From Candidatus Woesearchaeota archaeon (GTDB lineage: Archaea > Nanobdellota > Nanobdellia > Woesearchaeales > JAFGLG01), in the NCBI GenBank assembly GCA_016928155.1, contig JAFGLG010000007.1, forward strand, positions 207,320 to 271,319: a stretch of DNA of 64,000 bases. The letters run 5' to 3'. Numbering within the stretch: the stretch's first letter is position 1; each line of letters begins with the position of its first letter. Made by a program: the position numbers and the translations under genes. This document shows, piece after piece, positions 12,695 to 62,900 of the stretch. The notes under the pieces are model-generated. The model was not told the DNA's origin and searched no databases. It saw only the letters and a list, made by a program, of their open reading frames with translations.

Positions 12695-12698
12695 TTTA

Positions 12699-14192: not shown

Positions 14193-14427
14193 CTGTGACC
14201 ACCCTGTAATATTTTGAGACGCCTGCTGTGGGGCTTGATCTCTCAATCATAATGATGTCCCCTTCTTCAGGCTTCAGGTCAGCTATCGCGGGGTCGCTCT
14301 TGAATATCTTTGGGAGCCCTTTTGAAGTCACTTGATAAGTCTCATACAATGCTTTGGACTCAGTCTTATTGAGCTTGGTGTGTTTGGGCACCAGGTTATG
14401 TGTCTTGATATCAAATTTTTCTTTCAT
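14185..14427 (-). CDS. rpoH: DNA-directed RNA polymerase subunit H (RPB5 C-terminal type)
   Basis: The 80-aa subunit is the archaeal H/RPB5 assembly domain: HNLVPKHTKLNKTE at the start and PAIADLKPEEGDIIMIERSS in the middle are characteristic. It opens the RNA polymerase operon and overlaps rpoB2 by 8 bases. The tRNA-Lys gene ends only 44 bases upstream on the same strand with no strong TATA between them, so tRNA-Asp, tRNA-Lys and rpoH may share a primary transcript. Confidence 0.95.
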   Translation of the reverse strand: MKEKFDIKTHNLVPKHTKLNKTESKALYETYQVTSKGLPKIFKSDPAIADLKPEEGDIIMIERSSPTAGVSKYYRVVTDV

Positions 14428-38290: not shown

Positions 38291-40699
38291 TTATTCTGTT
38301 GTTGGCGCGCTGACAGTGATGTCAGACATGCTGGTTCCGCTGACCCACATCTCGTCTCCACTCAAGGTATAGCCGTCATAGTCACCAAGGACAGTTGTGG
38401 CTCTCCTTGTGTCATCTGCTTCCCATCCTGCAACGATCAGGCCGACCTTGCCGCCGTTCTCAACAAGCTTCATGATGGCTGAGTTCTCTGGAATACCAGA
38501 ATCAGCTCCACATGCCGGGTATGATAGACCCAACAGGCTTGCAGTGACCTTGTTGACGCAGCTACCACCGACTGAGATCACATTCTGTGCTGTTGCGCTT
38601 GCGATCTCTGAGGCCAATTTAGCAGCTCCAACCTCAATCTTGGTGACTGATGTTGCAGCAGTGCCCTCGATGGTTGATGACGTAACCTTACCAGCTGTCA
38701 CAAAGACCTGAGCGACCCTGTACTCTTCTGGGTGCCAGATCTCTATGGTCTTCTGGTCATCATCTGTGTCATACTCCCATTCCATACCATAGTTGTATGT
38801 CACACCATGCTTTATCTTATTGCTGGCGTCAGATTTGGCTTTCTCGTCCCATTCTACTCCTTCTGCACCCATAACTGTCTTGTTTAGGGTGGCATCCATC
38901 TCTGTGCCGTCCCATGTGAATTTGACAACGATAGAGTCTGGTCCAGCCTCATTATACTCGTCGCTGCCTCTCACACTGATCTGGGTTGCATCTGACAGGT
39001 TGATGTATCCATTGTACCTGGTCCATACGTGGTCCATCTGTACTCCGACAATGGTGAAGTTCTCTGCTGCTTCATTGATGGCATTGAAGGTAATTGTCTG
39101 GCCATCCAGTGTGTATGTTCCTGCTGTTCCAGAGTATGACCATTCATACTTCTCCATGGAACCCTGCTCCTTCAATTGCAGAACCTTCTTGTCGTCGTCT
39201 ATTCCAGTGAACTGGAAGATCCTTGTCTTCTCCATGTCATCATTGTTGACGATGAAATAGTCGTCTTCAGTTATTATTCCCGGGTCAGTCACCAAGGCAT
39301 TCGGGTCAGTCTCGTCGTATTCACCAAACTCGAAACCACCATCATAATACACAAGCGGGATGCTGTACGAATCTCCCATCTTGTTGGTGAATTTCAGGTC
39401 ATACTGCTCATCACCATTTGGCACGAACTCGATCTCCTCAGAGTCCATTCCCTCCAGGCCTTCAAAGATGAAATCAAAGCCATGCAGGAGGAAATAGCCT
39501 TCTTCGCCTTCCCTGTCATCTGCTTCTTCACTCATTGAGCCGCCTACAGGCACATAGAGATCCTCACCAGCTGTATAGTTGAAGTATAAGCTGGCAATCT
39601 TGACTTCCTCACCATTACTGCAGTTGACTAATGCATCAACCTCAGTCTCGATGTCCAGTGAGTCATCTCCTACCTTGATGTTTCCTCCACCTGCAGCCTG
39701 AGTGTCTGAATCAGTGATCTCTACACTGTTGGCTCCTAGATAGAACTCAACCAGGTCACCGCCGGTTGTCTCACCCGCTTCGTTAGGCAAAATCTCCCTG
39801 ATGCCTATCTGTGTACCATCAGTCAAGGTATATGTGTCGCTCTCTTCCAGGCCCTTTGTGACTTCGCCATTGATGTTGAACTTGACTGAACCATCACCAT
39901 CGTTTGCTGTGTCAGAGACAATGATTGCCTTGACTTCATAATCTGTCCCTGAAATGGTGTATGTCTTGGTCTCTCCTTCCTCAATGGTGTCCATTGTTGA
40001 GCCGCCCATCAATTCCAAGGTTATATCATGGTCGTCATTGCATGTGGCCTCGATGATGACATATTCCTTGCCGAACAGCGTGATTGAAGCGTCTTCAATC
40101 TCGTCAATCGTTGTACCTCGATTATCGTCTACGTCGGTTTCACCCTCCAGATGCGGAGTGAAAGTGACTGTATACTCATAGACCAAGGCGCCATCTTCAG
40201 CCAGCAGATACCAGCCTGCGACTTCATCATCATCCTCATTGTCTATAGTCCACAAGACAGTTGCATCAGGCAGATACAAGTCTTCTGTATATGTGTGGGT
40301 GCCGTACTGATTCCTGATCGATCCGCCAGACAATGCTTCTAGCTCATTATCATCGATTGCAGAAATCACCTCCTTGACATTCTCTCCGAGTGTCAGATCA
40401 TCACTTGCATCTGATACCTGGAAGCTGTCACCGAACACAACAACTGACGATCCGCCGCCTGTTCCTGTGGTTGTCTTCATGCTGAACTGAAGCCCTGTCG
40501 CAACGTCGATTGCGCCGACAATATCATCAGCCTTCGCATCGTCGCCGACCACGATCACACCATTGAACACGCCATTCGCAACGAACGGGGCCGGGTAATC
40601 CGCCAAGTCAGCTGCCATTGCGCCCAACATGGTTGCTCCCAACATTGAAGCACCTACGCCCAGCGCAACGATTCTTTTTACTGTTTTCTTAACTTCCAT
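38291..40699 (-). CDS. S-layer protein (Methanocaldococcus-type)
   Basis: The 802-aa protein has a signal peptide ending near AMAAD, then DYPAPFVANGVFNGVIVVG and DIVGAIDVATGLQF, the N-terminal signature of the MJ0822-like S-layer family. The C-terminal S-layer domain (NKVTASLLGLSYPACG, then LIVAGWEADDTRRATTVL) is also present. The mature protein is strongly acidic with many Thr and Asp and few Lys, as for extracellular lattice proteins. It is expected to be the main cell-wall protein. The ribosome binding site AGGAGGTG is the strongest in the window and the gene has a long leader, both fitting very high expression. Confidence 0.93.
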   Translation of the reverse strand: MEVKKTVKRIVALGVGASMLGATMLGAMAADLADYPAPFVANGVFNGVIVVGDDAKADDIVGAIDVATGLQFSMKTTTGTGGGSSVVVFGDSFQVSDASDDLTLGENVKEVISAIDDNELEALSGGSIRNQYGTHTYTEDLYLPDATVLWTIDNEDDDEVAGWYLLAEDGALVYEYTVTFTPHLEGETDVDDNRGTTIDEIEDASITLFGKEYVIIEATCNDDHDITLELMGGSTMDTIEEGETKTYTISGTDYEVKAIIVSDTANDGDGSVKFNINGEVTKGLEESDTYTLTDGTQIGIREILPNEAGETTGGDLVEFYLGANSVEITDSDTQAAGGGNIKVGDDSLDIETEVDALVNCSNGEEVKIASLYFNYTAGEDLYVPVGGSMSEEADDREGEEGYFLLHGFDFIFEGLEGMDSEEIEFVPNGDEQYDLKFTNKMGDSYSIPLVYYDGGFEFGEYDETDPNALVTDPGIITEDDYFIVNNDDMEKTRIFQFTGIDDDKKVLQLKEQGSMEKYEWSYSGTAGTYTLDGQTITFNAINEAAENFTIVGVQMDHVWTRYNGYINLSDATQISVRGSDEYNEAGPDSIVVKFTWDGTEMDATLNKTVMGAEGVEWDEKAKSDASNKIKHGVTYNYGMEWEYDTDDDQKTIEIWHPEEYRVAQVFVTAGKVTSSTIEGTAATSVTKIEVGAAKLASEIASATAQNVISVGGSCVNKVTASLLGLSYPACGADSGIPENSAIMKLVENGGKVGLIVAGWEADDTRRATTVLGDYDGYTLSGDEMWVSGTSMSDITVSAPTTE

Positions 40700-41219: not shown

Positions 41220-43463
41220 TTGATGGGAAAAAGAGGCCAGATAACAGTATTTATAATAGCAGGATTGATACTCCTCATCGCGTTCTCTATTATTATATAT
41301 ATCACAGTCATCAGACAGGAGTCTGAGTTTGAGACCGGAAAAGCAGAGACAATAGAGAAAGCGCCGATAGAAGTCAGGCCGGTAAGCTCTTTCATCACAG
41401 ACTGCATAGAATCAGTCGGCAAGGATGGCCTGCGCAAGCTCGGGATGCAAGGTGGATACATAAGCCTCGAAGAAGCAGGCATAATATCAAACCCTGACCC
41501 TACATCAGGCAAAGCATTGAAGTTCTATCCTGACTATGAATTCGAGATCCCTTATTGGTGGCACCTGAGCTCGCCGAACTCATGCTCAGGCGGATGCGAG
41601 TTCGACACCCAGAGGCCCCCGCTCTACGGGCCCAACTCTATCCAGATACAGCTCCAGGATTATATGGACAAGAGGCTCAGGTCTTGCCTGAGGCAGTTCG
41701 AGGATTTCCAGGGGCAGGGGTACATATTCAGGGACCTATATAACATATCCACTGAAGTGAAGTTCACAGAGAAGGACATAATATTCAATGTAAGATACCC
41801 ATTGGACATACAGAAAGGCGAGCAGACATACAGGCTCGAGAGATTCACGAATGCACTTCCTGTCAAATTCCTCACCATATACAGGACAGGGACAAAATTG
41901 ACCCTTGCGCAGGCAAACTTCTCATTCCTCGAGAAAGAGGCTAAGAACATCATCTCTATATATTCAGGCGTGGACGAGAACAAGCTTCCGCCGATTGCTG
42001 CATCTGAATGGGGGCCCATGAATTTCGTGCACTGGAGAAAATCCGAAGTGCGCGAAAAGGTCGAGGACATACTCGTCTCATTCATGCCGCTCTTCCAGAT
42101 ACCTGGCACGAGGAATTACCAGGCAAGGAACGAGAGCAACATCTTCACGCAGGGCGTATACAAGCTGTCAGACCTTGCGATCACAGGAGAGCACGAGACA
42201 GAATTCTCCAACATGTCAGTCAGGTTCTTCTACCTCGACTGGTGGCCGATATACTTCGACCTGACAGGCAGGGGGGCAAAAGGCGAGCTGATCATGCCTG
42301 AGTTCATGATGAACACAGGAATACTGCCCATAAGCATACAGAGATACCTGTACTATTATGACCTGTCATTCCCTGTTGTCGTCGAGATATATGACCACGA
42401 GGCATTCAACGGGGAAGGATACAGGTTCATGTTCGCCCTCGAAGGGAACCTGAGAGACAACGGCTACATGAACGCAGGCTATGTCGACATGAGCACAGAG
42501 GCCCAGCAGTTCGGCACAATGCTCTGCAACTATAATATGAGGGACTCAGGCAACATAACGACTGAGACATATGATAAAATCACAAATGAGCCTGTGGATG
42601 AGGTCGGCATCTCATACAGGTGCGGAGACGAGACATGCGCAATAGGATTCACAGAGATGAACAGCATGGGCACCAAGGCAGACTTCACCTCAAAATACCC
42701 CATATGCCTGGGGGGTTACATAATGGCAGACAAGTTTGGGTACTTCTCTGTGCCGATAAGATATGACACCCAGATTGATGAGAATGAGGATTTCAGGATA
42801 CCCATGGTGCCGGAGAAGGAGATAACCTTCAATGTGCTCAAGAAGCCAGTCGAGAAATTCGGGAATATGTGGACATTCATAGATACGCCGAGAAGACTTT
42901 ACGACACAGAGATGGCCATTGTCCAGATAGACAAGGTGAAGGAGGATCCATTGGAGCCGGACTTCAGCACCACAGGCATATTCTACGGCAACCAGACAGA
43001 CCCGACAATGATCAAGCTTGTGCCGGGGAAATACCAGGTGGACATAAACCTCATATACAACCTACCTGCAGGAAGCCAGGAGGCAGTCATCATACCAGAA
43101 GAGGAGAGATGCGAAGGGGGCACATTGTTCACTGACTGCGAGAAGATAATACTGCCAGAAATAGTCTTCAACAAGACATTCCCATCAGGAGGGTTGCATA
43201 TGGGCCCGATATACATGTATGACACAGAGAACACGACAAACGGCACCATGCCCCAGTCATACCAGGTGGATGAGACCCAGCTGTGGGAAGTCAAGGCATC
43301 TGACCTGTACCAGAGCAAGACAGTAAGCTTCTTCGCTGTCGGGATGCCCGGGTCAGGCATCAAGGAGAATACACTGGTGTATGACGACCTGAACACGCTG
43401 AACCAGAAGGATAACCTTTCAAAAGTCTACAGGAACAGCCTGGAGCCGAGATGGATAAGATGA
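41220..43463 (+). CDS. Exported protein with class III (pilin-like) signal peptide
   Basis: The 747-aa protein begins MGKRGQITVFIIAGLILLIA. The KRGQ-plus-hydrophobic-helix start is the class III signal processed by prepilin peptidase, often seen in large DPANN surface proteins. GGGGAGATTG upstream is the ribosome binding site; I set the start at 41223 or 41220 (TTGATGGGA), with the ATG at 41223 preferred. The rest is extracellular, with paired Cys (CSGGC, CGDETC, CEGGTLFTDC) and aromatic-rich beta segments, and no family recognised. It opens a co-directional operon reaching 52324, and overlaps the next gene by 13 bases. Confidence 0.78.
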   Translation: MMGKRGQITVFIIAGLILLIAFSIIIYITVIRQESEFETGKAETIEKAPIEVRPVSSFITDCIESVGKDGLRKLGMQGGYISLEEAGIISNPDPTSGKALKFYPDYEFEIPYWWHLSSPNSCSGGCEFDTQRPPLYGPNSIQIQLQDYMDKRLRSCLRQFEDFQGQGYIFRDLYNISTEVKFTEKDIIFNVRYPLDIQKGEQTYRLERFTNALPVKFLTIYRTGTKLTLAQANFSFLEKEAKNIISIYSGVDENKLPPIAASEWGPMNFVHWRKSEVREKVEDILVSFMPLFQIPGTRNYQARNESNIFTQGVYKLSDLAITGEHETEFSNMSVRFFYLDWWPIYFDLTGRGAKGELIMPEFMMNTGILPISIQRYLYYYDLSFPVVVEIYDHEAFNGEGYRFMFALEGNLRDNGYMNAGYVDMSTEAQQFGTMLCNYNMRDSGNITTETYDKITNEPVDEVGISYRCGDETCAIGFTEMNSMGTKADFTSKYPICLGGYIMADKFGYFSVPIRYDTQIDENEDFRIPMVPEKEITFNVLKKPVEKFGNMWTFIDTPRRLYDTEMAIVQIDKVKEDPLEPDFSTTGIFYGNQTDPTMIKLVPGKYQVDINLIYNLPAGSQEAVIIPEEERCEGGTLFTDCEKIILPEIVFNKTFPSGGLHMGPIYMYDTENTTNGTMPQSYQVDETQLWEVKASDLYQSKTVSFFAVGMPGSGIKENTLVYDDLNTLNQKDNLSKVYRNSLEPRWIR

Positions 43464-46400
43464 ACAACAGGATTAACAACAAGATTAACAATAATATGAA
43501 CAAGATGAACGATAAGATGAACAATAATATGAACAAAGCGCATATGATGCAGAGGAGGGCGCTGTTCTTCATATTCCTCATCATATCGCTCCCGTTCTAT
43601 ATCTCAGAGGCCATGGCTGCTCCGATGGTAAGGGAGACGCATGTATTCGGCGAGAACATGATATATGACTACAGGAAAGCGCTTGACTACACATATATAA
43701 TCACTGAAGTCAGGACCGATGAGACGAACATGACAGCAGAAGAGATGGCCACGAGGGTCAAAGTCTCGAACCAATGGTTCCACACATGCGAGCCCCTGCC
43801 GAACAATTTCTTCAAATGCTACTACACGCCGTCAAGCAGGGACGGGCCGATCGTGCCAGATACGCACACACTGAAGATCGAGCTTGAGGATGAGAATGAC
43901 GAGGTGGTCGCATCAAGGATAGTGACATACCATGTCGACAACAAGGCACCGGAGATAAAATCCTTCTCTATCTCGCCGGCAGTCGCGGGCCCGGAAGACA
44001 ACATATCCCTTGACTTTGTCGTCGAAGACCATGCCTACAGCAACACTGACACCGCAAAGTGCGTAGGCACGGCATATGTGACCATACTTTCAGGCGGTAC
44101 AGAACTCGGCCAGCTCGCTGTCAACAAGACGACATGCAGGGTGAGCATGAGCGAGAAGCTCCCGGCCACAGCATTCACTACAGATACAGGCACAACACAG
44201 ATATGCCTGTACGGCACAGACAATTTCGGCCAGACAGGAGAGAAAAAATGCACTGCCCTGACCACAGATTTCAACCTCCCTGAGCTCACGGGATTCAGCG
44301 TGAACCTCAAGAACGGGTCACCTCTTTACTGGGTCAATGAGCAGGGGACCACCGCTGATGTATTCCTCAACATAACTGAGGATGACACGGGGCTGGATAC
44401 AAGCAATATCTGGGCAGATTTCGGCAACCTCAGCGGATCGAGGCACAGCTACAAGAAAGGCTCATGCACGCAGAGGGACGAGAAATACAAGTGCAAATGG
44501 AGCAATGTGGAGGTAAAGGTGGAGGAGAGCATTTCAGCCATCATCGTCTTCAACATATCAGACATCGCAGGCAATGAGGTCATCACAGAAGCGAGCTGGA
44601 ATGTCTATCTCGACAACATAAGGCCGAATGTCACCATCGTGGCACCATACATAATGCCCCTGAATGGGACATATTATGTCGGGCCGCAGGAGATGGATTA
44701 TTACGCGCAGTTCATTGAGCTAGAATCCGGCATTGACTACAGGAATGTCTTCATGGATTTCAGCGTCTGCGGAGGCTCCGGCAAGGACCAGGCAGACAAC
44801 TGCTCAGCAGACCAGACATGCTTCTGGTACAACAGGACATGCGACGCAGCAGACGGCACAGAAGGCAAGCTGAGGATAAGCCCGGACAGCGCTGACAACA
44901 TGGGCAATCCGGTCCGTGGGAATATGACCGGCGACATCATAGTCGACAGCAAGCCGCCGTATATCACGGAGGTTGTGATGAACACCACAGGCTCCCAATG
45001 GTTCAACCAGCCTGACATAATAAACCAGACCAACCTCACAATCGTCGTCAAGGATGATCTGCTGATCATAAATGCTACAATATATGACACAGTCAGCCCG
45101 GAGACAATGGTGTATGCCAACTTCACAGAGCTGAACGGGCCGGACTTCTGGCCGGGCGACTGCATAGTCGTATCCCCGAGGAAAAGCGAATGCCTGTTCG
45201 CGACCTACATAAACGTCACCGGAGGCAGGAACTACAAGTTCTACCTGAATGCATCAGACATCGTGGGGAATTACCAGACCAAGGAACTCGAGATATTCGT
45301 CTACAGGATGGAGAACGAGAGCCAGGACCTGTGGAGGCATTCCAAAGGCGATCCCAGCCCCAACCCCATAGACAAGCAGATGCTCGAAAGGTATATCATG
45401 TTCCAGTACTGGCCAATACAGCTGACTTCCACGAAGCCAGACAACTGGCCGTACTATATCTATATCGCAGACGCGTGCTACAATGTCACCACAGAGGACG
45501 ACGAGGACATAAGCGCAGAGGACATCATCTGGGGCCCATACCCTGAGATTGTCGACTTCAACACGCCGACAGAGCCCGGAAGCCTGCCATACAACATGTT
45601 CCTCAAGTACAATCTTTATACTGTTGCTCCGGAGGACGATACTGTCGAGGTGAAATGCCCGATAGGCATCCTTTCGATACTTGACGGCAAGACGATCTAC
45701 GGGCCTGAGATCGAAAATATCACTATAGAGATAGAATATTACAACCTGCCTTATGGTGAGGTCGGTGACGAGCTTTATGAGGAGCTCAAGAAAGTCATGG
45801 AGGGCATCACCTCGGAGTGGGGAGAATGGATGGATGACATCGAGGGTCTGATAAAGGTCCTCGAGGCTTTTTGCTCCCTGGTTGACTGGATCAAGAAACT
45901 CTCTGATGCCTACAGCATGTCAGTCGCGATACTGACCAACTGCGCGAACAATCCTGGATCAATGTCTTTCTGTGAACCGGCGAGGCAGACATCTAATGTC
46001 GCCCATGAGACAACGGATCAGTCCCTGGCGCAGACATATGTCCAGGTGAAGAAGTACTGCAATTACCTTAGCTGCAGATACACAAATGAGAAGACAGTGA
46101 AAGATGACCTGAATAAACAGATGGGGACTGCTGGCATGACTGAACCATCTACTGGCGCTGAACCATCAGAAGGCAACACTGACCCTGGCGGAAGAGGCGA
46201 GTACGGGACTTTTTACACAAGAGCCGGAGCAGGATACGGGTGGTTCGGGAACACTGTGATTAAGGAGAGCATGATATATTCGATAATATTCCTGTGCCTG
46301 CCGGGTATCGTCTATAACGGGCAGAAGTGGAGAGGCATCGAGTGCAGCTATGCAGACTGCCTGATGGCAGTCCCTTATGGCACGCCAAAATACCTGTGCG

Positions 46401-46783
46401 ACCAGAGGAGGGAATATGAGCAGTGCATGTTCCTCTGGGGCCAGATATTCAACATGATACCATTTGCAGCAGCTATCTCCTCGCTCGGCCAGAACATAAT
46501 AGCTGCATTCTCTGACACAGGCGTCTTTGCCCTGAGAGTTGTCAAATTCACCTGCACTGGGATATGCAAGGAGAAAGCTACAGGAACAGGATGCTTCGCG
46601 TGCAATGTCATCAACTGGCTCAATATGATGGTGGATGTGGCATGCGACCTGGGAGTAGATATGGGCAAGAAGGAATGTGAAGGATACTGGGAGGGCCAGA
46701 CCTTTGACTTCGACAGCCAGACAGCCTGTGAGCAGACAATAGAAAGGTTCGAGAACATAACAAAACAGATGGACGATGACTGA
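43451..46783 (+). CDS. Large exported Cys-rich protein with Ig-like domains
   Basis: The 1110-aa protein opens with about 30 residues made of Met, Asn, Lys and Ile in a near 12-base repeat, followed by a signal-type helix (RALFFIFLIISLPFYISEAM). Residues 60-560 are a chain of Ig-like modules linked by DNKAPEIKSFSIS-type motifs with N-glycosylation sequons and Cys pairs. Residues 700-1110 are more helical with several CxxxC pairs and two or three hydrophobic segments (SMIYSIIFLCLPGIVYN, FNMIPFAAAISSLGQNIIAA) that may enter the membrane. GGAG before ATG 43451 supports the long start. Family unknown; likely forms a surface complex with its operon partners. Confidence 0.78.
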   Translation: MDKMNNRINNKINNNMNKMNDKMNNNMNKAHMMQRRALFFIFLIISLPFYISEAMAAPMVRETHVFGENMIYDYRKALDYTYIITEVRTDETNMTAEEMATRVKVSNQWFHTCEPLPNNFFKCYYTPSSRDGPIVPDTHTLKIELEDENDEVVASRIVTYHVDNKAPEIKSFSISPAVAGPEDNISLDFVVEDHAYSNTDTAKCVGTAYVTILSGGTELGQLAVNKTTCRVSMSEKLPATAFTTDTGTTQICLYGTDNFGQTGEKKCTALTTDFNLPELTGFSVNLKNGSPLYWVNEQGTTADVFLNITEDDTGLDTSNIWADFGNLSGSRHSYKKGSCTQRDEKYKCKWSNVEVKVEESISAIIVFNISDIAGNEVITEASWNVYLDNIRPNVTIVAPYIMPLNGTYYVGPQEMDYYAQFIELESGIDYRNVFMDFSVCGGSGKDQADNCSADQTCFWYNRTCDAADGTEGKLRISPDSADNMGNPVRGNMTGDIIVDSKPPYITEVVMNTTGSQWFNQPDIINQTNLTIVVKDDLLIINATIYDTVSPETMVYANFTELNGPDFWPGDCIVVSPRKSECLFATYINVTGGRNYKFYLNASDIVGNYQTKELEIFVYRMENESQDLWRHSKGDPSPNPIDKQMLERYIMFQYWPIQLTSTKPDNWPYYIYIADACYNVTTEDDEDISAEDIIWGPYPEIVDFNTPTEPGSLPYNMFLKYNLYTVAPEDDTVEVKCPIGILSILDGKTIYGPEIENITIEIEYYNLPYGEVGDELYEELKKVMEGITSEWGEWMDDIEGLIKVLEAFCSLVDWIKKLSDAYSMSVAILTNCANNPGSMSFCEPARQTSNVAHETTDQSLAQTYVQVKKYCNYLSCRYTNEKTVKDDLNKQMGTAGMTEPSTGAEPSEGNTDPGGRGEYGTFYTRAGAGYGWFGNTVIKESMIYSIIFLCLPGIVYNGQKWRGIECSYADCLMAVPYGTPKYLCDQRREYEQCMFLWGQIFNMIPFAAAISSLGQNIIAAFSDTGVFALRVVKFTCTGICKEKATGTGCFACNVINWLNMMVDVACDLGVDMGKKECEGYWEGQTFDFDSQTACEQTIERFENITKQMDDD

Positions 46784-47828
46784 AACACTGGTTGAGTATA
46801 TCAGGGAACAGCTGCAGAACGGCTTCACCATAGATCAGATCCGGGACTATCTGATAAGATATGGATACCACGAGCAGGACGTCAACATAGCTGTAGATGC
46901 AGCGATGCATGGTATAGATACTCATCCTATTGTCCAGCAGGTGCCCATACACAAGCATCCGCTTGCGATGAAAATAATGATAATACTAGCAGTGGTCACA
47001 GTCTCGCTGGCTGTCTTCATGTACTTCAGCAGGACAGTGGACGAAGGGATGATACAGGCTCCTATGACTGAAGGGGTGACTCCGGTTATATTCCAGCCTG
47101 AGCCTGAAACCCCAAAGATCCCAAAGAATGTGCAGGACAGGATAGACAATGTGATGAAGGATCTTCAGAATGCAGAGAAGACGCAGAATTCATACCAGCA
47201 GCGCGTCGATTATCTTGACAATGCCATAGTGAACCTCAGGGTCATCATAGATGAGGAGCCCAACAGCGCAGATGCCCACAACTTCCTTGCAGATGCCCTC
47301 GAGGCAAAAGGGCTCTATGACGAGGCAGAGTCTGAATACAGGGTTGCCATGGAATTGGATCCGGACAATCCCGAGCTCTACAACGACCTCGGATACCTCT
47401 ATGCCCGGAAAGGGGACATGTCCACAGCGACGCAGTATTACAACAATGCTATAGCGAAGGATCCCACATTTGATGTGGCATACAGCAACCTCGGGATGTA
47501 TTATTATGAGACAGGGAACTATGATGAGGCAATAAGGAATTTCGTCATAGCAAAGGAGCTCAAGTCATACAACTACAAGACAATAAACAACCTGGGATTC
47601 GCTTATCTAAAGAAAGGGATGCACGAGAGGGCGCTTGCAGAGTTCAGGGAATCGCTGAAGATAAACCCGGATTTCCCTAATCCCTATTTCGGGATCGGGC
47701 TTGTGTTCATGGAGCAGCAGCAGTATGACAAGGCAGTGTATGAGCTCGAGAAGAGCATCGTGCTCGATCCTTCGAATTTCATCTACCAAGAGGCATATGC
47801 CAGGGCCAAGAAGAGCCTGGAAGTGTGA
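46776..47828 (+). CDS. Membrane TPR protein with N-terminal helical motif
   Basis: The 350-aa protein starts inside the end of the previous gene (ATGACTGA overlap). Residues 1-45 form a small three-helix motif (LVEYIREQLQNGFTIDQIRD, then LIRYGYHEQDV). A single membrane helix follows (MKIMIILAVVTVSLAVFMYF, about 65-85), then a Pro-rich spacer and six or so TPR repeats from about 165 to the end (EPNSADAHNFLADALEAKGL, DPDNPELYNDLGYLYARKGD and so on). The TPR region should lie outside the cell, with the helical motif inside. TPR proteins usually scaffold assemblies, so this may hold the operon's exported proteins together. Confidence 0.88.
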   Translation: MTETLVEYIREQLQNGFTIDQIRDYLIRYGYHEQDVNIAVDAAMHGIDTHPIVQQVPIHKHPLAMKIMIILAVVTVSLAVFMYFSRTVDEGMIQAPMTEGVTPVIFQPEPETPKIPKNVQDRIDNVMKDLQNAEKTQNSYQQRVDYLDNAIVNLRVIIDEEPNSADAHNFLADALEAKGLYDEAESEYRVAMELDPDNPELYNDLGYLYARKGDMSTATQYYNNAIAKDPTFDVAYSNLGMYYYETGNYDEAIRNFVIAKELKSYNYKTINNLGFAYLKKGMHERALAEFRESLKINPDFPNPYFGIGLVFMEQQQYDKAVYELEKSIVLDPSNFIYQEAYARAKKSLEV

Positions 47829-47833
47829 TAATA

Positions 47834-48382
47834 ATGGCAAGAAAACTACCAAGACCGCCGGCACCGAAAGTCTATGAGACAGAGAGGAAGATGGGAGCGA
47901 TAGTCTCAGGCATATTCGTGATAATCCTTGTCTTCATGATAGTCTTCCTCACTGAGTCCATGCAGAAGACAGGCACTTCACAGAGCCTGACGATATCAAA
48001 TGCGCAGTTCGCATACTATGTGGATGACGACTATAACTTTGAGCCCAATCCCACAGCAGCGTACAATGCAGGTGATGACATTTTCCTGTATTTTGAGGTC
48101 ATAGGATATAAGACAGCCGAAACTCCGACCGGATATCGCACAGAGCTCACATCAGATGTGCAGGTCTCAGATCCGGAAGGACAGCTTGTGCCTCAGCTGA
48201 GCAGGAAGAACATCTTCGACGAGGTTTTTGAATTCGAAGCGGATTATGGAGCGATACCGGTGAAGACACAATTTTCAGTGCCCTCACATTTCCCGTCCGG
48301 AGAATACACATTAGAACAGTTCGTATACGATAAGATGACAGGAGACGCAGTCAAGCTGTCAAAGAGATTCACGATAGAATGA
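47834..48382 (+). CDS. Small membrane-anchored Ig-like protein
   Basis: The 182-aa protein starts at ATG 47834 (a GTG nine bases earlier overlaps the TPR gene's stop). A Pro-rich basic N-terminus (RKLPRPPAPKVYETERK) precedes one membrane helix (MGAIVSGIFVIILVFMIVFL). The remaining 130 residues form a single beta-sandwich outside the cell (NAGDDIFLYFEVIGYKTAET, then GEYTLEQFVYDKMTGD). Fits an accessory or adaptor role in the operon. Family unknown. Confidence 0.75.
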   Translation: MARKLPRPPAPKVYETERKMGAIVSGIFVIILVFMIVFLTESMQKTGTSQSLTISNAQFAYYVDDDYNFEPNPTAAYNAGDDIFLYFEVIGYKTAETPTGYRTELTSDVQVSDPEGQLVPQLSRKNIFDEVFEFEADYGAIPVKTQFSVPSHFPSGEYTLEQFVYDKMTGDAVKLSKRFTIE

Positions 48383-51300
48383 AGAAGAAGAGCATATTAT
48401 GGATTGTTGTATTATTAATAATTGTAGCATCAGCAATATCTGCAGATGATTACTGCATTGTAGAGATACAAGTATCAAGAGCTGGCCACAACTATCACTT
48501 CTGCAATAATGGCAATAACTGGCAAGACCTATACGGAAATAACGAGCTGCTTTACCTTGTTGGTGATGCAAATTCAATTCCGGATGCCTACAATAATATT
48601 AGGTGGCATTTCCTCTCCGAAGAAGAAAACAGCTGGTGGAGACAAGATTACATAAGGACAAAGTATATGGGTCAAGAAGAATTCAGCCAATACTACAGGC
48701 CCAAGGACTGGCGACCAGACCCTGCACAGTTCACAAGCACATTAGAGGCAGAGATTAACAGACAAAGGCAATTGGCTACTCCAGGGAGAAAAGAAGATGA
48801 ACCAATAAGTATTGAAACAGTTACAGGATCAGCTGGTTCCCCAATCATCTCTAAACAAGATGGACCATCAGGAGGAACAGGAGGGGACACATCACCACCC
48901 TCATCAGGACCACCATCCTCAGTGACAGGGCTTGAGGAAAAGGCACTGAAACCGGATTCTGTGTTCAGCGGAAATGAGATTGGAGACCTTATGGGATCAC
49001 AAGGCATAGATGCCACGAGCCTGAATCTTGTCGGCGACAGGAAGTATAATATCCGTTATGAAAATGGAGAATTCAAGGTCTATGATACGCTTGACCAGAT
49101 TGGAAAACCTGCCGGGGAAGATTTTGACAATTATATGTTTTATAGGAGAACTGAAAAAAACCAAGCGCAGATAGCTGGCGCAGAGTATCAGTACGGCCTA
49201 TCTGCTGATGACAAAGGGATCAGGATCTGGACAAATATAAATAATGATATTGATCTGAAGCAGGATGGCTTCAGGCTGCCTGAGGGGAAAGAAGGGGAAT
49301 TCAAGGGTTTCAAGCCCCTGTCAGATTATAAAAAAGGTGATTATCTCACTTTCAGCGACGGCAAGCAGACAGACAATCTGATGATGACAAAAAGCGGGGA
49401 CAGCACCGGACAGATATGGGGCCATCAGACAGGAGATACATTCCAGCTAAGCTTCTACGGCGATGACGGCAGGATGAGGCAGATACAGGGCAAGGATTTC
49501 CAGCCGGCTGTATCCACTAAGGCAATGGATGCACTGAAAGGATTTGAACAGGCAAAGAGAGGTGAGCTGGACAATACGCTTGCAATACTGGAAAAATATG
49601 GATTCAGCACATCTGATGCAAGAATAAACAATGCCATAATAGGGGGTAATCTAGGTTTCGGGGTACAGACTGTTGACAATGTAGCATTGACTTTAGGGGG
49701 AGGAAGCACAGCTAACTTCGCAAGCATAACAACAGAAAAAAGCTCGATGACCCTGCCAGATGGCAGAATGGTCGATGTTCCCGGCGGAACCACCTATGTC
49801 AACATGGGCGCACTGACAGGAAACTGGCAGGAAACATATAAAGACAGGGATGCAATGCTGGCCAACATACCTCAAAATGCTGTGATTACACTGCAGACAA
49901 AAGACGGACCTATGAATTTCCTTATCGGGAACAGTAAGAATAACCAAAATGCATTGACTATGATACCTGTCGGCCAGCAGGATTTCGGCGCAATGAACAG
50001 CCAGCAGACAATAAACAGCGTACTCAGCCTCAATAGTGGCACAGCAAATTCAGGATATGGCATAGCAGGCAACACAGTGTTTGACCTGAGAGGAGGAACA
50101 GCTTTGGGTAACTATATCAACCTGCAGGGCGCTGGCGGATTCAAACCAGGGCAGATACCTGAAGGGTCAATCACATGGACTGATGACAAGGGCAATATCT
50201 GGGTGAACAGGCCAGCCACAGGCGCAGACGGGACAAAGACCGGAGACAATTCAGTTGTCGGGCAGTATCAGAGCTATGGCGCCGGAGTGAATCGGATCAC
50301 ACCCACAGGAGGGAACGCCTCATACACGTGGACAGATCCGAAGGGCAATAGTCATGACATGACTGATGTGGATCAGATGTTCGCTGGAGGAGCCCATGTA
50401 GATTCCGAAGGCAATTTCTTCATGCCGCCGAATGAACAAAATCCCAATGGTGTTTCCCTGGATGGATGCAAATGGTCAGGCGGAAGCAGGTGCACAATGG
50501 ATTATGGTGATACCAGCATACAGGTGAACTGCGGAGCAAATGGCTGCTCAGCTTCATATCACGGGTTCTCCCAAAGCTACCTCGGCATTGGGGCTCACAT
50601 GACAACGATGTCAGGCACTACATTCAACGGACAGGACTACACAGGAGACCTCATGGGAACAGCCAAGGGTAATGCGCAGTCAGGCGGTGGTCCATGCAGC
50701 AGCATAGGCAACAACACATGGTGCTATTATGACCATGATTTCATCCTATTTGATACGCAATTCTGCACCCTTAAAAATGAGATATACGCATGCGGGAGCA
50801 ACACGACATACAAGGACCAATATGGCCTAGACGATTATAATGCCAGGTTCGGCAGTACTCCCAGCTGGTCTGCGTGGCTTACGAACATAGGACAGATACT
50901 AAGCCAGTGGATAGAGGCAACATCAGGATATCCAAACCTCGAAGGCTTCCTGTATGACCCTGCAGAGGAAGAGGCATGGATAGATTTCAGCGCACAGGAA
51001 TGGGGTTACCTGCTCTACGGGATACAGGGGTGGAGCTCGCAGATATGCCAAGTGGACAATCCAGTATCTGACACAGATCAGTACGGATTCGCCTTCTCAG
51101 CAGATTCAATGCTGGGGGCAAGCGCACACATAGAAGCTGAGAGGACAACATTCTACAATTATTCCGACGAGGATGCAGAGGAGATGTATCTTTACAAGCT
51201 CTCTTTCAGCGTGAACCCGGGGACATGTTACCTTGATTTTGAAGTGGATGCGAAACCGCTGTTCTACGAGGAGTATGACCATGAGGAGATGATAGACCCG

Positions 51301-51561
51301 GATGAGGATGAAGAAGGGGAAAGTAATGAAACAATAGAGCTCATGGCCGCTGTGGGAGGAAGAACGATGCAGCCGTCTGTGAGTGAGTTCATCATAAACA
51401 CATCAACATCACTCATCACGAAAGTATGCATCAACTTCAAGGATATGGACCCGGAGAACTGCTTCGGCAATGACATGGGGCCGGGCTCCCATCTCTGCAG
51501 GGAAGTCAATGACGGCGACCAATATGAAGAGGGATGGCATGAGGAACAATATGGATACTGA
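48379..51561 (+). CDS. 1060-aa exported protein of unknown family
   Basis: It begins with an ATGA overlap with the previous gene and a signal peptide (MKKKSILWIVVLLIIVASAI). Residues 25-100 hold Cys pairs and many aromatics, 130-175 a Gly/Ser/Pro/Thr linker. Residues 180-680 are long and Gly/Asn/Asp-rich, with beta-hairpin-like repeats (ITWTDDKGNIWVN and YTWTDPKGNSHDM are alike) and NTVFDLRGG-type turns that suggest a beta-solenoid or propeller. Residues 690-900 are Cys-rich (CKWSGGSRCTMDYG, CGANGCSASYHG). The C-terminus is acidic. No enzyme motif recognised. It is probably the main extracellular product of the operon. Confidence 0.75.
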   Translation: MKKKSILWIVVLLIIVASAISADDYCIVEIQVSRAGHNYHFCNNGNNWQDLYGNNELLYLVGDANSIPDAYNNIRWHFLSEEENSWWRQDYIRTKYMGQEEFSQYYRPKDWRPDPAQFTSTLEAEINRQRQLATPGRKEDEPISIETVTGSAGSPIISKQDGPSGGTGGDTSPPSSGPPSSVTGLEEKALKPDSVFSGNEIGDLMGSQGIDATSLNLVGDRKYNIRYENGEFKVYDTLDQIGKPAGEDFDNYMFYRRTEKNQAQIAGAEYQYGLSADDKGIRIWTNINNDIDLKQDGFRLPEGKEGEFKGFKPLSDYKKGDYLTFSDGKQTDNLMMTKSGDSTGQIWGHQTGDTFQLSFYGDDGRMRQIQGKDFQPAVSTKAMDALKGFEQAKRGELDNTLAILEKYGFSTSDARINNAIIGGNLGFGVQTVDNVALTLGGGSTANFASITTEKSSMTLPDGRMVDVPGGTTYVNMGALTGNWQETYKDRDAMLANIPQNAVITLQTKDGPMNFLIGNSKNNQNALTMIPVGQQDFGAMNSQQTINSVLSLNSGTANSGYGIAGNTVFDLRGGTALGNYINLQGAGGFKPGQIPEGSITWTDDKGNIWVNRPATGADGTKTGDNSVVGQYQSYGAGVNRITPTGGNASYTWTDPKGNSHDMTDVDQMFAGGAHVDSEGNFFMPPNEQNPNGVSLDGCKWSGGSRCTMDYGDTSIQVNCGANGCSASYHGFSQSYLGIGAHMTTMSGTTFNGQDYTGDLMGTAKGNAQSGGGPCSSIGNNTWCYYDHDFILFDTQFCTLKNEIYACGSNTTYKDQYGLDDYNARFGSTPSWSAWLTNIGQILSQWIEATSGYPNLEGFLYDPAEEEAWIDFSAQEWGYLLYGIQGWSSQICQVDNPVSDTDQYGFAFSADSMLGASAHIEAERTTFYNYSDEDAEEMYLYKLSFSVNPGTCYLDFEVDAKPLFYEEYDHEEMIDPDEDEEGESNETIELMAAVGGRTMQPSVSEFIINTSTSLITKVCINFKDMDPENCFGNDMGPGSHLCREVNDGDQYEEGWHEEQYGY

Positions 51562-52123
51562 GAAGTTGGATGCGGAAAGCACGAAGAACATAATCGGCGT
51601 GGACAATGGCTGCCCCGTATGCGGGGGCATTGTCAGGGGCAATGATGAATTCAGGTATGTCTGCCTGCACTGCAAGCTGTCATTCAAGGCAGAAGAGCTC
51701 AACAGCCCTGAAGTCAGGGATCAACTGGCATTCAAGAAAGAGCTCGATGATCTCAATGCGAGATGGGAAGAGTTCAGGAAGAAGCTCAGGGCAAAATCAG
51801 AAGAGGTCAGGCTTACGGTGCAGGAATATGACAGGGAGATAAAAGAGACAGATACAGGAGATATGGCAAAAAAGGATCCAGGATACATGGAAGCTGATGA
51901 TAGAAAGATGGATAGCGCGCATGACAAAGCAGGCATACAGGCAGAAGGGCAAGATGATATAGAGAAAGAAGACATAGAAAAACAGAGCATAGAAAATGAT
52001 GACACTGAGAAAGGTAATCCTGAAGGGAGCACAGATGAAGAGGACATAGAGAGCATCCTGTCTGCGCCACCGATCCCCCCGGCAGGACCGGATCTCGATG
52101 CGATATCCAGGCTTTTTAAATGA
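51539..52123 (+). CDS. Zinc-ribbon protein with long acidic tail
   Basis: About 194 aa. The start is ATG 51539 (behind GAGGGATGGC) or 51551 (behind GAGGA), both overlapping the previous gene. GCPVCGGIVRGN and YVCLHCKLSF form a CxxC...CxxC zinc ribbon in the first 55 residues. A coiled-coil region follows (LDDLNARWEEFRKKLRAKSE), then a Glu/Asp/Lys-rich low-complexity tail with repeated DIEKEDIEKQ-type units, ending in a short hydrophobic DLDAISRLF. There is no signal peptide, so this would be the cytoplasmic partner of an otherwise exported set. Confidence 0.7.
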   Translation: MRNNMDTEKLDAESTKNIIGVDNGCPVCGGIVRGNDEFRYVCLHCKLSFKAEELNSPEVRDQLAFKKELDDLNARWEEFRKKLRAKSEEVRLTVQEYDREIKETDTGDMAKKDPGYMEADDRKMDSAHDKAGIQAEGQDDIEKEDIEKQSIENDDTEKGNPEGSTDEEDIESILSAPPIPPAGPDLDAISRLFK

Positions 52124-52144
52124 ATCCGCAGGATAGGTGCTGAA

Positions 52145-52324
52145 ATGGAGCGTAAGAAGAAGACATTGGCAGAAGAAGCCCAGGATGGTGCAAAGGAATA
52201 CGAAGGGCTGGAAGAGCCCTATAAGAGCGCCAGAGAGCTGGATAATGAGGATAAGGAGTTCCAGGAAGAAGTGGATGAGCTGACCAGGAAGATGTTCAGG
52301 AAGCCTGATAAAAAAGAGAAATAA
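52145..52324 (+). CDS. 59-aa charged helical protein
   Basis: The frame from ATG 52145 (GGTGCTGAA just before it) encodes a highly charged, probably fully helical peptide (MERKKKTLAEEAQDGAKEYE ... FQEEVDELTRKMF). It has the same direction as the operon and comes 21 bases after the zinc-ribbon gene, so it is likely the last operon member. Unknown family; it may pair as a coiled coil with the helical part of its neighbour. Confidence 0.55.
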   Translation: MERKKKTLAEEAQDGAKEYEGLEEPYKSARELDNEDKEFQEEVDELTRKMFRKPDKKEK

Positions 52325-58954: not shown

Positions 58955-59932
58955 TCAGCGCAGATAAGCATCGACAATGCTTCTCCTCCATCCCACGTTC
59001 AGCAATACCTCTCTTATCTTATCATCCGGGATGCCGGCATTCCTTGCTTTCCTGATATATAACTGCAGATCACGCACCTTACTGGCCTCTGCGAAGACAA
59101 CATCCACTATATGCCTTGCCCAGCCGGCACTCACAAGGCTCTCAGCGATCTGCTCCTTGGATCTTCCCCTCTCAAGGGCATGCTTGATGTAAAGGAAAAG
59201 CTTAGAGAAATCCTCGTGGGCGAAATGCACATTGAAATCCTCAAGATAATGTATCTCATCCCTGATCCCCTGCAGCATCTTCTTCTGGTCAGCGACCGCA
59301 GTGAGTATCTCTGATTCCTGGGCAGACACCTTCCTGAGCTCATCCCTGAGATCTTTCCTCCGCTTGGCACTCACAAGCATCTCTATCAGGGAGAAGACCA
59401 ATATGAAAAGAACGATTATCAGTATGATGAGAGCCCATATATTATCGATAAAATTCAGCGATTCAGGCACTATAATAGCTGCTCCTGTCGGTATTTCCGG
59501 CGCCTTCTGCGCCGGCTTCTCCTCAGCCGGCCTGAATATGCATGATTTTGTCAGTGCAGGCATATTCATGCCAGTCTCACATTTATTTACATCGGTGCAG
59601 GTCCTTCTCTGGAGATCATCAGACCCGCAAGGCCCATAATCAGAGCAAGTCCAATTAGGCTCGCAGTCGAAACCGCCTTTATCAGCGACTCCGCCCCCTC
59701 CTTTCATGATGATAGGAGAGCCACCTGATGGACGACGACAATCCGCAGGGCAATTTGAATATGACTCTCCAGAGTCACAGACCCCATTACCACAGGTCAT
59801 TGTTCCTGTGAGGCCGTCGACTGTTCCGCTCAGGGAACCACCGCCTCCACCCAATGTGCCTGTGATCTCTGCCAGGACCAGCGGTGCGACCAGCAAAACC
59901 ATCAGCCAGATGAGGATATTTTTCATTTTCAT
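58955..59932 (-). CDS. Single-pass membrane protein with disulfide-rich surface part and cytoplasmic GW helical repeats
   Basis: The 325-aa protein has a signal peptide and Gly-rich segment, then CGNGVCDSGESYSNCPADC (a repeat type frequent in archaeal and bacterial surface proteins). A thrombospondin-like Cys module follows (WTCSDYGPCG, RRTCTD). One membrane helix lies near 165-190 (IWALIILIIVLFILVFSLIE), then a coiled coil (about 195-235). Two copies of a roughly 38-residue helical motif end it, LYIKHALERGRSKEQIAESL...GW and LYIRKARNAGIPDDKIREVL...GW. The same motif begins the TPR protein at 46776. Between the giant surface protein (4-base overlap upstream) and polB; a signalling or scaffold role is inferred. 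Confidence 0.75.
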   Translation of the reverse strand: MKMKNILIWLMVLLVAPLVLAEITGTLGGGGGSLSGTVDGLTGTMTCGNGVCDSGESYSNCPADCRRPSGGSPIIMKGGGGVADKGGFDCEPNWTCSDYGPCGSDDLQRRTCTDVNKCETGMNMPALTKSCIFRPAEEKPAQKAPEIPTGAAIIVPESLNFIDNIWALIILIIVLFILVFSLIEMLVSAKRRKDLRDELRKVSAQESEILTAVADQKKMLQGIRDEIHYLEDFNVHFAHEDFSKLFLYIKHALERGRSKEQIAESLVSAGWARHIVDVVFAEASKVRDLQLYIRKARNAGIPDDKIREVLLNVGWRRSIVDAYLR

Positions 59933-62900
59933 GGGTAATCCTGTATTCCGTAGTCTGTTGTATATGTGCCAGCATGAGTGCCGAGAGGCAGGATCTGTCT
60001 TAATGTTAATGTAGTCTGGATGCCGTTTGTCAAATTTGAATCCTCATCAAACAAGGAGTCGACAACCTGCAAATCCTGATAATCATTTGAGATATCATAA
60101 ACCCTCTGCTGGCCAGAGCTGTTGGTGTATATCATGGTTGCATAGCCTGCAACAGGTATTGTATATCCATTCGATGACCAATCATCAAGCCTCATCCTCG
60201 CCCTGGTGTTGCCGTTATTGAGGCTTATCTGGAACCGGTATTCCCAATAATCAGAGCCATCAGCGACAGCATTTGCCTTAGTTGCCTGCAACCCAAGCAA
60301 CACAAGACCATATGTGGTGTCTATTGTTGTGTTGGCCTCTTCCACAATATTCCTTGTCTCTTCATTGCCACTTGTATCAGTGGCAACTGCCTCGAATCCA
60401 TAAGACTGCCCCTCCACACCAAGGAATACAGCACTTGTCAATGGGGTATCATCCATCCAGAGATACCATGAACCATTATAGACCCAGATATCATATGAAC
60501 CCATCCCCCAGTCTTCGTCCACAGCCCAAGAGACATTGAATTGGAGCGAATTCGTGATGTTGTCAAGCGGATTCACTGTAGCATTCGGAGGCCAGACATC
60601 ATAATAATAAGCCCTTGTCTCGTCTTCATCAACCACATTTCCAGCCCCATCTGCGCAAAGCAGAAAAATGCGGTTTAGGCCTGGATTGCTTGTCAAGGAT
60701 ATCAGATGTTTGTAACCATATGAATTGTCCGTGGTATTAGTGCCAGATCCATATGTAAAGGTATCATTGCTGTACTGGCAATAGGTGTTCTCATCTGTCA
60801 GAATATTTACATTGACTTCAGACCAGTTGCCTACTGTAGGGTACACCGCCATATTAGTGATATGCGGAGGTATATTATCCATTGTGAACAGGTACATCAC
60901 AGGATCATTCATCAGATGTCCTGAAGTGTCATTGCACTTGATGTAGTAAAGGTTCGTTCCTGTCATCGGAGTGATTGATGCATTGTGATAAGTGTTGTTG
61001 TCATTCATTGCAGTCATCAATGAATAATTCAATGTGCCGCCTGTCGAGTATCTGCAGGATGCATTCTCGTCTGTGACTGCATAAAGCATTGAAGGCAAAG
61101 TATTGTAAAGGTTTTCAGTGCCCAGATCGGTGCCCATCTCGACAACAGAAGGTGCTGAGGAATCAACAAGCACAGAGCTGCTTGAATAATTCAGATTGCT
61201 AGCTTCATCCCTGCATCCATAATAGATTGTGTATAACCCATCTGAGGGCACACCTATAGTAGAGGCATAAGCGCCTGATGATGCATTTATCAATGATAAC
61301 TGGTCAGCCATTGAGCTGAATTGCACATCTGACAATGAATACCTGCATTCAAGCTCGCTGTCCAAAGTGTCGTTTGCGATTATAGTATACATGAAGCTCA
61401 ATGAGTTCTTCTCTGAATATGTGGCAGGATAAACATTCGGTCGTGTAGTGTCTATCCAGAACACTCTTATTTCGCTCCATTCGCTTGTTATTGCTCCCCC
61501 GCCGATATTCCTTGAAGCCATTACTCTCCATGAATAATTGCCATCACTCAAATATTTAACCGAACTGGATGTGACATTCTCACCACATAGGGGAACAATG
61601 CCCCCTCCACCAGAGAGGTTGGTGACCTCAACCTGATATTGGTCCTCACCTGTAACATCATACCATCCAAGGGTTATGTTCGTGCTGTTGTGCCAGTGAT
61701 TATTCTCAGGCCATTTCAACTGTGGGGTGGCAAGCGGAGTGTCGTCGACATTTTCTGTATAGACAAGCACCTGGTTGCTCAATATCTCATTCAGGGCTGC
61801 ATCCTCGCACATGACCTGCAATGAGTGAGAACCGTCTGTCTCAAGAGAAGAGTTCCAGTTGTATGCGCCGATAAGATGTGTCGAATTCTCCCAGATTTTA
61901 TTTGTGATCAGTATGTACGGTTTTCCATCGATTGTAATATAACAATCCTCAATCCCATTCTCATCATAAGCAGTGAAGTTCACATCAACCATGCCCATCA
62001 AGGTTGAGCCTCCGAGTGGAGATGTTATGACAGCATTTGGTTTATAGACATCCTTTGTCATGCGCCAGTTCATGACCTGCCTATGGATTATGCCATAAGT
62101 GTCATTGATATATACTGAGTCTATTGTCCGCACTGAGCTGTCAGCGCCTGTCATCTGGTATTCGAGCTCCCAGCCCAGGGTAACAGGATTGAAATCTGCA
62201 GTGTGGTTGATGCCTTCAATCTCAAGCATTATCCAGGTTATGCCTGTCCCTCCTTCTGAGGCATTGCCAGTGATGGCAAAATATTCAGGCACGTAGGAAT
62301 CATTGGCTGGGTACAATATATCTACAACAGGCGGATCAGTATTGATGATGAACCATCTTTTCTCAGTATCATTCACATTGCCTGCCCTGTCTGCTGCTGC
62401 TGCAGTCACAGTGTAGTTGGAATCAGGATAGAGATTGGGATCGAATGTCGCGCTCCAGTAATCACCATCCTGGGCTGCTGCAATCTGGGTGACAAAAGCG
62501 CCATTTGAAGAGTTTGTTATGTTGAAGACCACAGATGCGACACCTGCAAGAGTGTCATTCGCAGTCACATTTATAGTCCTGTTGGTCACTACCCAATTCT
62601 CGCCGTCAGCTGGATTGTTGAACCAGACTCCAGGATTGACTGTGTCGATTGTGATTGTCCAAGGTGCTGATGTATCTGTGTTTCCGGCAAGATCTGTGCA
62701 GTTGACCCACCAGTCATAGACATTATCTGCAAGCTCTGTTGAGGTTATCCCTGTATTGGTGTTGTTCAATACAGCAGCATCGCTTCCAAGGTTATATGTT
62801 GTTGTAGTATCATTTGCATATAATGCACAGCTTGCATTAGGGCTCAAAGCGTCTGTATAATTGAATGTGAATGTGGTTGTGTTGTCATTTGTGTAGGTGC

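Follow-up and report, generated by a model that had tools for sequence, protein, structure and literature searches.

In the Sulfolobus bindosome (Bas), non-pilin surface proteins with class III signals are held at the cell surface; Bas carries solute-binding proteins and has an ATPase and platform proteins dedicated to it. In phage receptor-binding proteins and polymorphic toxins, one part is constant and serves for docking, and the other, which recognises or acts as effector, is freely exchanged. Archaeal and bacterial type IV pili with tip adhesins of the PilY1 type (Makarova et al. 2016, PMC4858521) have a class III-type site and large secreted proteins beside class III proteins. In those parts of Castelle et al. 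2021 (PMC8204110) that deal with the lineages of interest here, function-less families specific to DPANN lineages are found throughout Pacearchaeota and Woesearchaeota, many of them extracellular or membrane proteins (module 98 / fam00969), and giant proteins with a murein transglycosylase domain are proposed to act on bacterial walls.

The source genome (1.48 Mb, 17 contigs) is that of an archaeon of the Woesearchaeota order, and nearly all named genomes with related loci are also Woesearchaeota. The window, i.e., the whole stretch of 64,000 nucleotides that was analyzed, contains a run of seven genes with the following features:

41223..43463, + strand: gene A, 746 aa, with an N-terminal class III-type anchor, a conserved helical/beta module and C-terminal beta domains
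41223..41297, + strand: class III-type signal/anchor of A, MGKRG before the cleavage site and QITVFIIAGLILL after it, with Q6 invariant in 30 aligned relatives
43451..46783, + strand: gene B, 1110 aa, with a signal peptide, about six Ig-like domains (residues ~58-760) and a helical, Cys-rich C-terminal region (residues ~770-1110)
46776..47828, + strand: gene C, 350 aa, with an N-terminal helical motif common to the neighbouring fam7 family, one TM helix and TPR repeats
47825..48382, + strand: gene D, 185 aa, with one TM helix and a small Ig/FnIII-like domain
48379..50883, + strand: head of gene E, residues 1-835, signal peptide and variable part
50884..51507, + strand: tail of gene E, residues 836-1043, a conserved docking-like domain with nearly invariant cysteines
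51539..52123, + strand: gene F, a zinc-ribbon protein with an acidic tail
52145..52324, + strand: gene G, 59 aa, a charged helical peptide

Our analysis bore out all seven open reading frames proposed in the earlier note, on the + strand and in the order and sizes given there, although the start it had placed at 41220 is a TTG just ahead of gene A, which begins with the ATG at 41223. The coordinates also agree with its description of genes that overlap or nearly touch: A and B overlap by 13 nt, B and C by 8, and C and D, like D and E, by 4, while F overlaps the end of E and G begins 21 nt past F. Since nifS (52363) begins only 38 nt past G, the transcription unit may extend into nifS and the iscU-type gene that is also downstream. 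The per-gene features that had been read from the translations stood as well, with a class III-type N-terminus in A (KRG/QITVFII, the slash marking the cleavage site), 33 cysteines in B, a TM helix and TPRs in C, a single N-terminal TM helix in D, a signal peptide in E, and F and G without TM helices. In a hydrophobicity scan, A, C, D and E each showed a single hydrophobic segment at the N-terminus; B showed a signal segment, and F and G had no such segment. At Pfam and NCBIfam cut-offs, only the TPRs of gene C were matched among the seven genes, and an Rfam search of the window returned no match. Directly upstream of A, on the opposite strand, is an S-layer protein gene (PF05124; window 38291-40699).

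Comparison across genomes shows that A, B and E belong to a cluster with the ancestral, or full, gene order A-B-E-f5-A2-f8, where f5 is a protein of ~265 aa with six predicted TM helices, A2 a second A-type gene, and f8 a giant Ig/FnIII-type protein. As in Bas, A would be a non-pilin surface protein with a class III-type signal; unlike in Bas, the mapped clusters contain no BasE/BasF-type ATPase or platform genes and no solute-binding proteins, and the platform domain T2SSF is absent in 19 genomes that bear B. As in phage receptor-binding proteins and polymorphic toxins, E joins a constant, docking-like part to a freely exchanged part, but in E it is the N-terminal part that varies and the C-terminal part that stays constant. 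Unlike type IV pili (PMC4858521), the A-B-E set generally has no linked assembly ATPase or platform gene in the mapped loci and persists without the platform protein, and A, unlike type IV pilus subunits, is large and has no Glu at +5. The families of Castelle et al. 2021 (PMC8204110) are listed by co-occurrence, and the sections of that paper that present them describe no operon, class III anchor, f5 or constant-tail/variable-head protein; relative to those sections, what is new here is that giant transglycosylase proteins are coupled to a module with a class III anchor, and that the architecture allows heads to be exchanged. Some of A, B, E and f5 may belong to the paper's 51 families. The E tail and scaffold have no sequence relation to any known family in Pfam, NCBIfam and PDB sequence searches: A, B and E gave nothing above curated cut-offs in Pfam or NCBIfam, a PDB sequence search with A, B and the E tail gave no meaningful match, and f5, searched in Pfam only, was without a match. 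For A, B, E and their partners, the earlier proposal is upheld: they are a conserved set of genes, not described before, whose products are surface or exported proteins.

Gene E is modular, with a conserved C-terminal tail and an N-terminal head that is replaced wholesale, with sharp DNA boundaries. The conserved domain comprises the last ~200 residues, and is present, in one copy each, in 59 of the 117 genomes scanned in the order and undetectable in the other half; 58 of these 59 genomes also have B, with the tail within 12 kb of B in 46 genomes and on other contigs in the remainder. When 48 E proteins were compared by blastp, any match was seen in only 16 of 2256 ordered pairs for the heads, vs 625 for the tails, 1886 for A and 2180 for B, and the head in the window has no relatives among the 47 others. 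For example, G110 and G051, two members of the same genus, share 90% identity in A, 81% in B, 81% in f5 and 83% in the E tail, with no detectable similarity between their E heads. Examination of the DNA demonstrated that the flanks are 84-87% identical, that this similarity ends 18 nt past the B stop codon and at the tail boundary, and that the unrelated blocks (3.1 and 2.9 kb) hold the head and the preceding gene. The same layout is seen at greater distance in L140/L141 (same genus), L051/L059 and L164/L165 (same genus), and in more distant pairs fast divergence could take the place of exchange. Some close pairs (L172/L173, L170/L171) retain related heads, so exchange is frequent, not constant. 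Replacement of a whole head with sharp breaks differs from the pattern of diversity-generating retroelements. In addition, the gene exchanged together with the head in G110 (L044:7738-8700) encodes a YhcG/DUF1016 PDDEXK nuclease, and its counterpart in G051 an unrelated protein with no named domain. At L177 and L178, repeated paralogous segments downstream of B align with each other at several places, and are possibly duplicated head genes.

The heads also differ in composition from the genes around them. At 4-fold degenerate sites, their GC content is on average 6.4 points below that of B in the same locus (45 loci, p=3e-5), with no significant difference from B for tails, f8 or unrelated neighbours. 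We rejected odd amino-acid use as the source of the low GC3 of heads, since the signal persists at 4-fold sites and against the f8 control. In the window, 4-fold-site GC is 39.9% in the E head, 49.4% in the E tail, 60.6% in B and 57.6% in other genes; with these values the window's head also looks acquired, as judged from composition in a genome with no same-genus relative for direct comparison.

Domain searches give an indication of what some heads may act on. Of 51 E proteins scanned, two (from G052 and G228) have an SLT (murein lytic transglycosylase) head with a catalytic-type ES motif, one contains TPRs, and the others contain no named domain; the SLT domain (PF01464) is absent from E in the window, whose head shows no recognisable function. 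Among the giant proteins encoded beside A class-wide, SLT is found in three and an SH3 domain in a fourth, and in the window's own genome two large proteins whose genes adjoin short A-like genes contain LysM. More generally, 118 of the phylum's 236 genomes carry SLT, 29 of the order's 117 carry LysM, and the four archaeal control genomes carry neither (0/4). To our knowledge, archaea make no murein. The presence of SLT and LysM in some heads and in partners from the wider class makes bacteria a likely target in at least some lineages. Most SLT matches in the order sit away from the A-B-E locus, so they speak more for a widespread tendency to act on murein than for a trait of the A-B-E complex itself. 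Elsewhere in the same genome we observed a protein of 1041 aa that combines an SLT domain with a membrane part of many helices, in a layout reminiscent of conjugation-type components (L154:8254-11379, contig C6), a protein of 454 aa in which an SLT domain is preceded or accompanied by a Tat-like signal (L155:7208-8572, contig C8), and tandem pairs in which short A-like proteins (341 aa) each adjoin a large exported LysM protein (L122:2826-11818, contig C17), with further short A-like genes adjoining giant ORFs at L123, L124 and L125.

We propose, at what we judge to be even chances, that A, B and E, together with f5, A2 and f8, form a surface complex that presents exchangeable heads for contact with other cells. 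The class III-type signal of A would direct its export, after which the prepilin peptidase (PibD, Peptidase_A24) would trim the protein and the N-terminal helix would hold it in the membrane; B, an exported chain of Ig-like domains on a disulfide-rich helical base, would be the scaffold; and f5, the six-helix membrane protein encoded beside A-family genes, would be a dedicated membrane partner. E would be secreted, with its C-terminal tail docking on the scaffold and its head, of 100-2000 residues, facing other cells. Heads would be swapped between strains as cassettes, via recombination within the conserved sequence on either side (the E tail and the 3′ end of B), and each swap would alter what the cell binds or acts on. 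The earlier note had offered attachment to another cell or substrate export as the purpose of the genes; the former is possible and now better supported, through the exchangeable heads and murein-directed domains, with the mechanism we infer as above, and nothing was found in support of the latter. More tentatively, and with the balance of probability somewhat against it, the cluster may define an undescribed class of archaeal contact machine, independent of a pilus motor, with a peptidase-processed anchor, an Ig-chain scaffold, a six-helix partner, and a cassette-exchanged head on a constant docking tail, used for switching between hosts or prey and, in some lineages, for cutting murein. It has long been asked how uncultured DPANN archaea recognise their partners and hold on to them, and little is known of whether Woesearchaeota live on bacteria or on archaea; the A-B-E genes supply concrete candidates, in which the constant tail is a handle for searching and the variable head a handle for typing, so that head types can be set against host identity in metagenomes, and E heads can be made as soluble proteins for binding tests.

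Antigenic-type variation against viruses is the strongest rival to a contact complex, although we consider it unlikely. Here E would be an abundant envelope protein, an S-layer-like decoration that binds no prey or host, and its exposed part would be varied to evade viruses or host defences. Wholesale exchange of heads with a foreign-like composition fits such variation, as does the lack of a named domain in most heads, and a separate S-layer protein gene (38291-40699) adjoins A. What counts against it is that the SLT heads with a catalytic-type motif (two genomes), and SLT, LysM and SH3 domains in related modules, point to an outward activity on murein, and that several conserved partners exceed the needs of decoration. 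Relatives of A and E were sought in viral contigs; none were found, and a viral origin of either gene was rejected on that basis.

The conservation of the cluster bears on whether its proteins work together at all. Synteny was counted for 57 B genes out of 71 mapped loci, and contig ends depress the counts: A is directly upstream of B in 45 of 57, a protein with the E tail is within three genes after B in 42, f5 is within five genes after B in 39; a further A-type gene (A2 or A) accompanies 29 of the B genes, and f8 accompanies 20. Adjacency of A and B, and the order A-B-E-f5, recur in dozens of diverged genomes, which is beyond chance. In the window's own genome the cluster is split, with A-B-C-D-E in the window and f5-A2-f8-f5 at 49-59 kb of contig C7; f5, A2 and f8, which were outside the earlier seven-gene list, are therefore members of the conserved cluster encoded elsewhere in this genome. 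Ten A loci come from other orders of the class; in all ten a giant ORF of 732-2410 aa comes after A, and f5 follows in seven; eight of the ten comprise a giant ORF and f5 or, in one case, a giant ORF with B-like sequence. This recurrence outside the order makes A-giant-f5 look like an older, class-wide module. Gene order is thus kept across relatives for A, B, the E tail and f5, and not for C, D, F and G, so the seven genes are not a single conserved unit: F and G have no relatives at related loci, and C and D are specific to one slot. The idea of one machine, put forward for all seven, is plausible for A, B, E and their partners, which plausibly form one complex, and probably excludes F and G by their lack of conservation.

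The alternative, that these are separately working surface proteins united by co-regulation only, with E heads that just evolve fast, is in our view improbable. C, D, F and G are indeed not conserved with A-B-E, and E is missing from half of the genomes; against this, the A-B-E-f5 order persists at 20-30% identity across the order and is found again in a paralogous B-E-f5-A set in the window's own genome (L039, contig C5), and the sharp DNA breaks between G110 and G051 are unlike gradual divergence.

With a threshold of E<=1e-15, a profile of B detects the gene in 97 of the order's 117 genomes; in other orders of the class the profile gave weak matches only, with E no better than ~1e-12. Since B is undetectable in ~17% of the 117 genomes scanned, and the E tail in half, the complex is either non-essential or diverged past detection, and the E tail could anchor alone, without A or B. 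The structure model of B (mean pLDDT 74.8) has about six Ig-like domains in a chain, followed by a poorly modelled helical Cys-rich region that carries invariant cysteines; structure comparison returned generic Ig-chain matches only, with poor overall superposition. The profile of A, in contrast to that of B, gave strong matches across the whole class. Its model (mean pLDDT 83.6) starts with a long helix, continues with a module of mixed helical and beta structure and ends in beta domains; a transthyretin/CnaB-like domain at residues 438-531 is the sole clear structural match (Z up to 11). The N-terminus of the family reads (K/R)(G/A/S), the cleavage site, Q(V/I)T and then FIIIG, and the Q after the site is invariant across 30 aligned rows that are otherwise ~30% identical. 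Of 94 A-family proteins, 87 fit the strict prepilin-type pattern, and most of the others either miss it narrowly or have a late start codon.

The class III-type site in A, a near-universal prepilin peptidase, and T2SSF in most genomes of the order all speak for a reading in which A is a minor pilin, while B and E make up a PilY1-like adhesin complex at the tip or base of a filament (a type IV pilus or one like an archaellum); we nonetheless find this reading very doubtful. A is large (650-780 aa), and none of 30 rows has a Glu at +5 of the mature protein (which starts QITVF), with F, Y or another non-acidic residue in its place. The T2SSF platform (PF00482; PilC/TadC/FlaJ), although present in the window's own genome, is undetected in 20 of the 117 genomes of the order, and 19 of these 20 have B, so that the gene set is independent of the platform protein and pilus-dependent assembly is weakened. 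A first impression that B is enriched in T2SSF-less genomes was dropped, as the association between B and T2SSF absence is not significant (Fisher p=0.19). Linked PilB/PilC-like genes, which the earlier note suggested looking for, were not the rule: among the matches listed, T2SSF is within 15 kb of B in two genomes only, G048 and G010, and no assembly ATPase is found within the cluster in mapped loci, the ATPase profile PF00437 matching all genomes but including other ATPase families. Of the 117 genomes, 107 have a prepilin peptidase (PF01478), and among these are all 20 that lack T2SSF. The natural reading of B in 19 of those genomes and the peptidase in all 20 is that the peptidase has clients beyond pilins, A probably among them. 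This is a sign that archaea make use of class III anchors and the prepilin peptidase where a pilus platform protein is lacking. Equally doubtful is contact-dependent delivery of toxins or lysins, in which E heads would be exchangeable effectors released onto neighbours and the genes between B and the E tail co-inherited helpers: the heads of G110 and G051 are exchanged along with the adjacent upstream gene and two heads are SLT domains, but most heads contain no enzyme domain, the co-exchanged genes are mutually unlike (a YhcG/DUF1016 nuclease vs an uncharacterised protein), and the cluster has no injection apparatus or ATPase.

The remaining genes of the window's run vary between lineages. 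Between B and the E tail there is a slot of variable content, which holds C and D; both genes are lineage- or cassette-specific, with D recurring in the same slot in some relatives. Matches to F elsewhere are mostly confined to the zinc ribbon, G returned no relatives, and F and G are probably outside the core of the cluster. Two further observations were made in the window. On the - strand at 58955-63987 there is a pair of genes encoding a 325-aa protein weakly related to fam7 and C, and a 1352-aa protein with bacterial Ig-like domains (Big_13). At 10892-14246, RNA polymerase subunit B is split in two genes, which encode the N-terminal and C-terminal parts of Rpb2.
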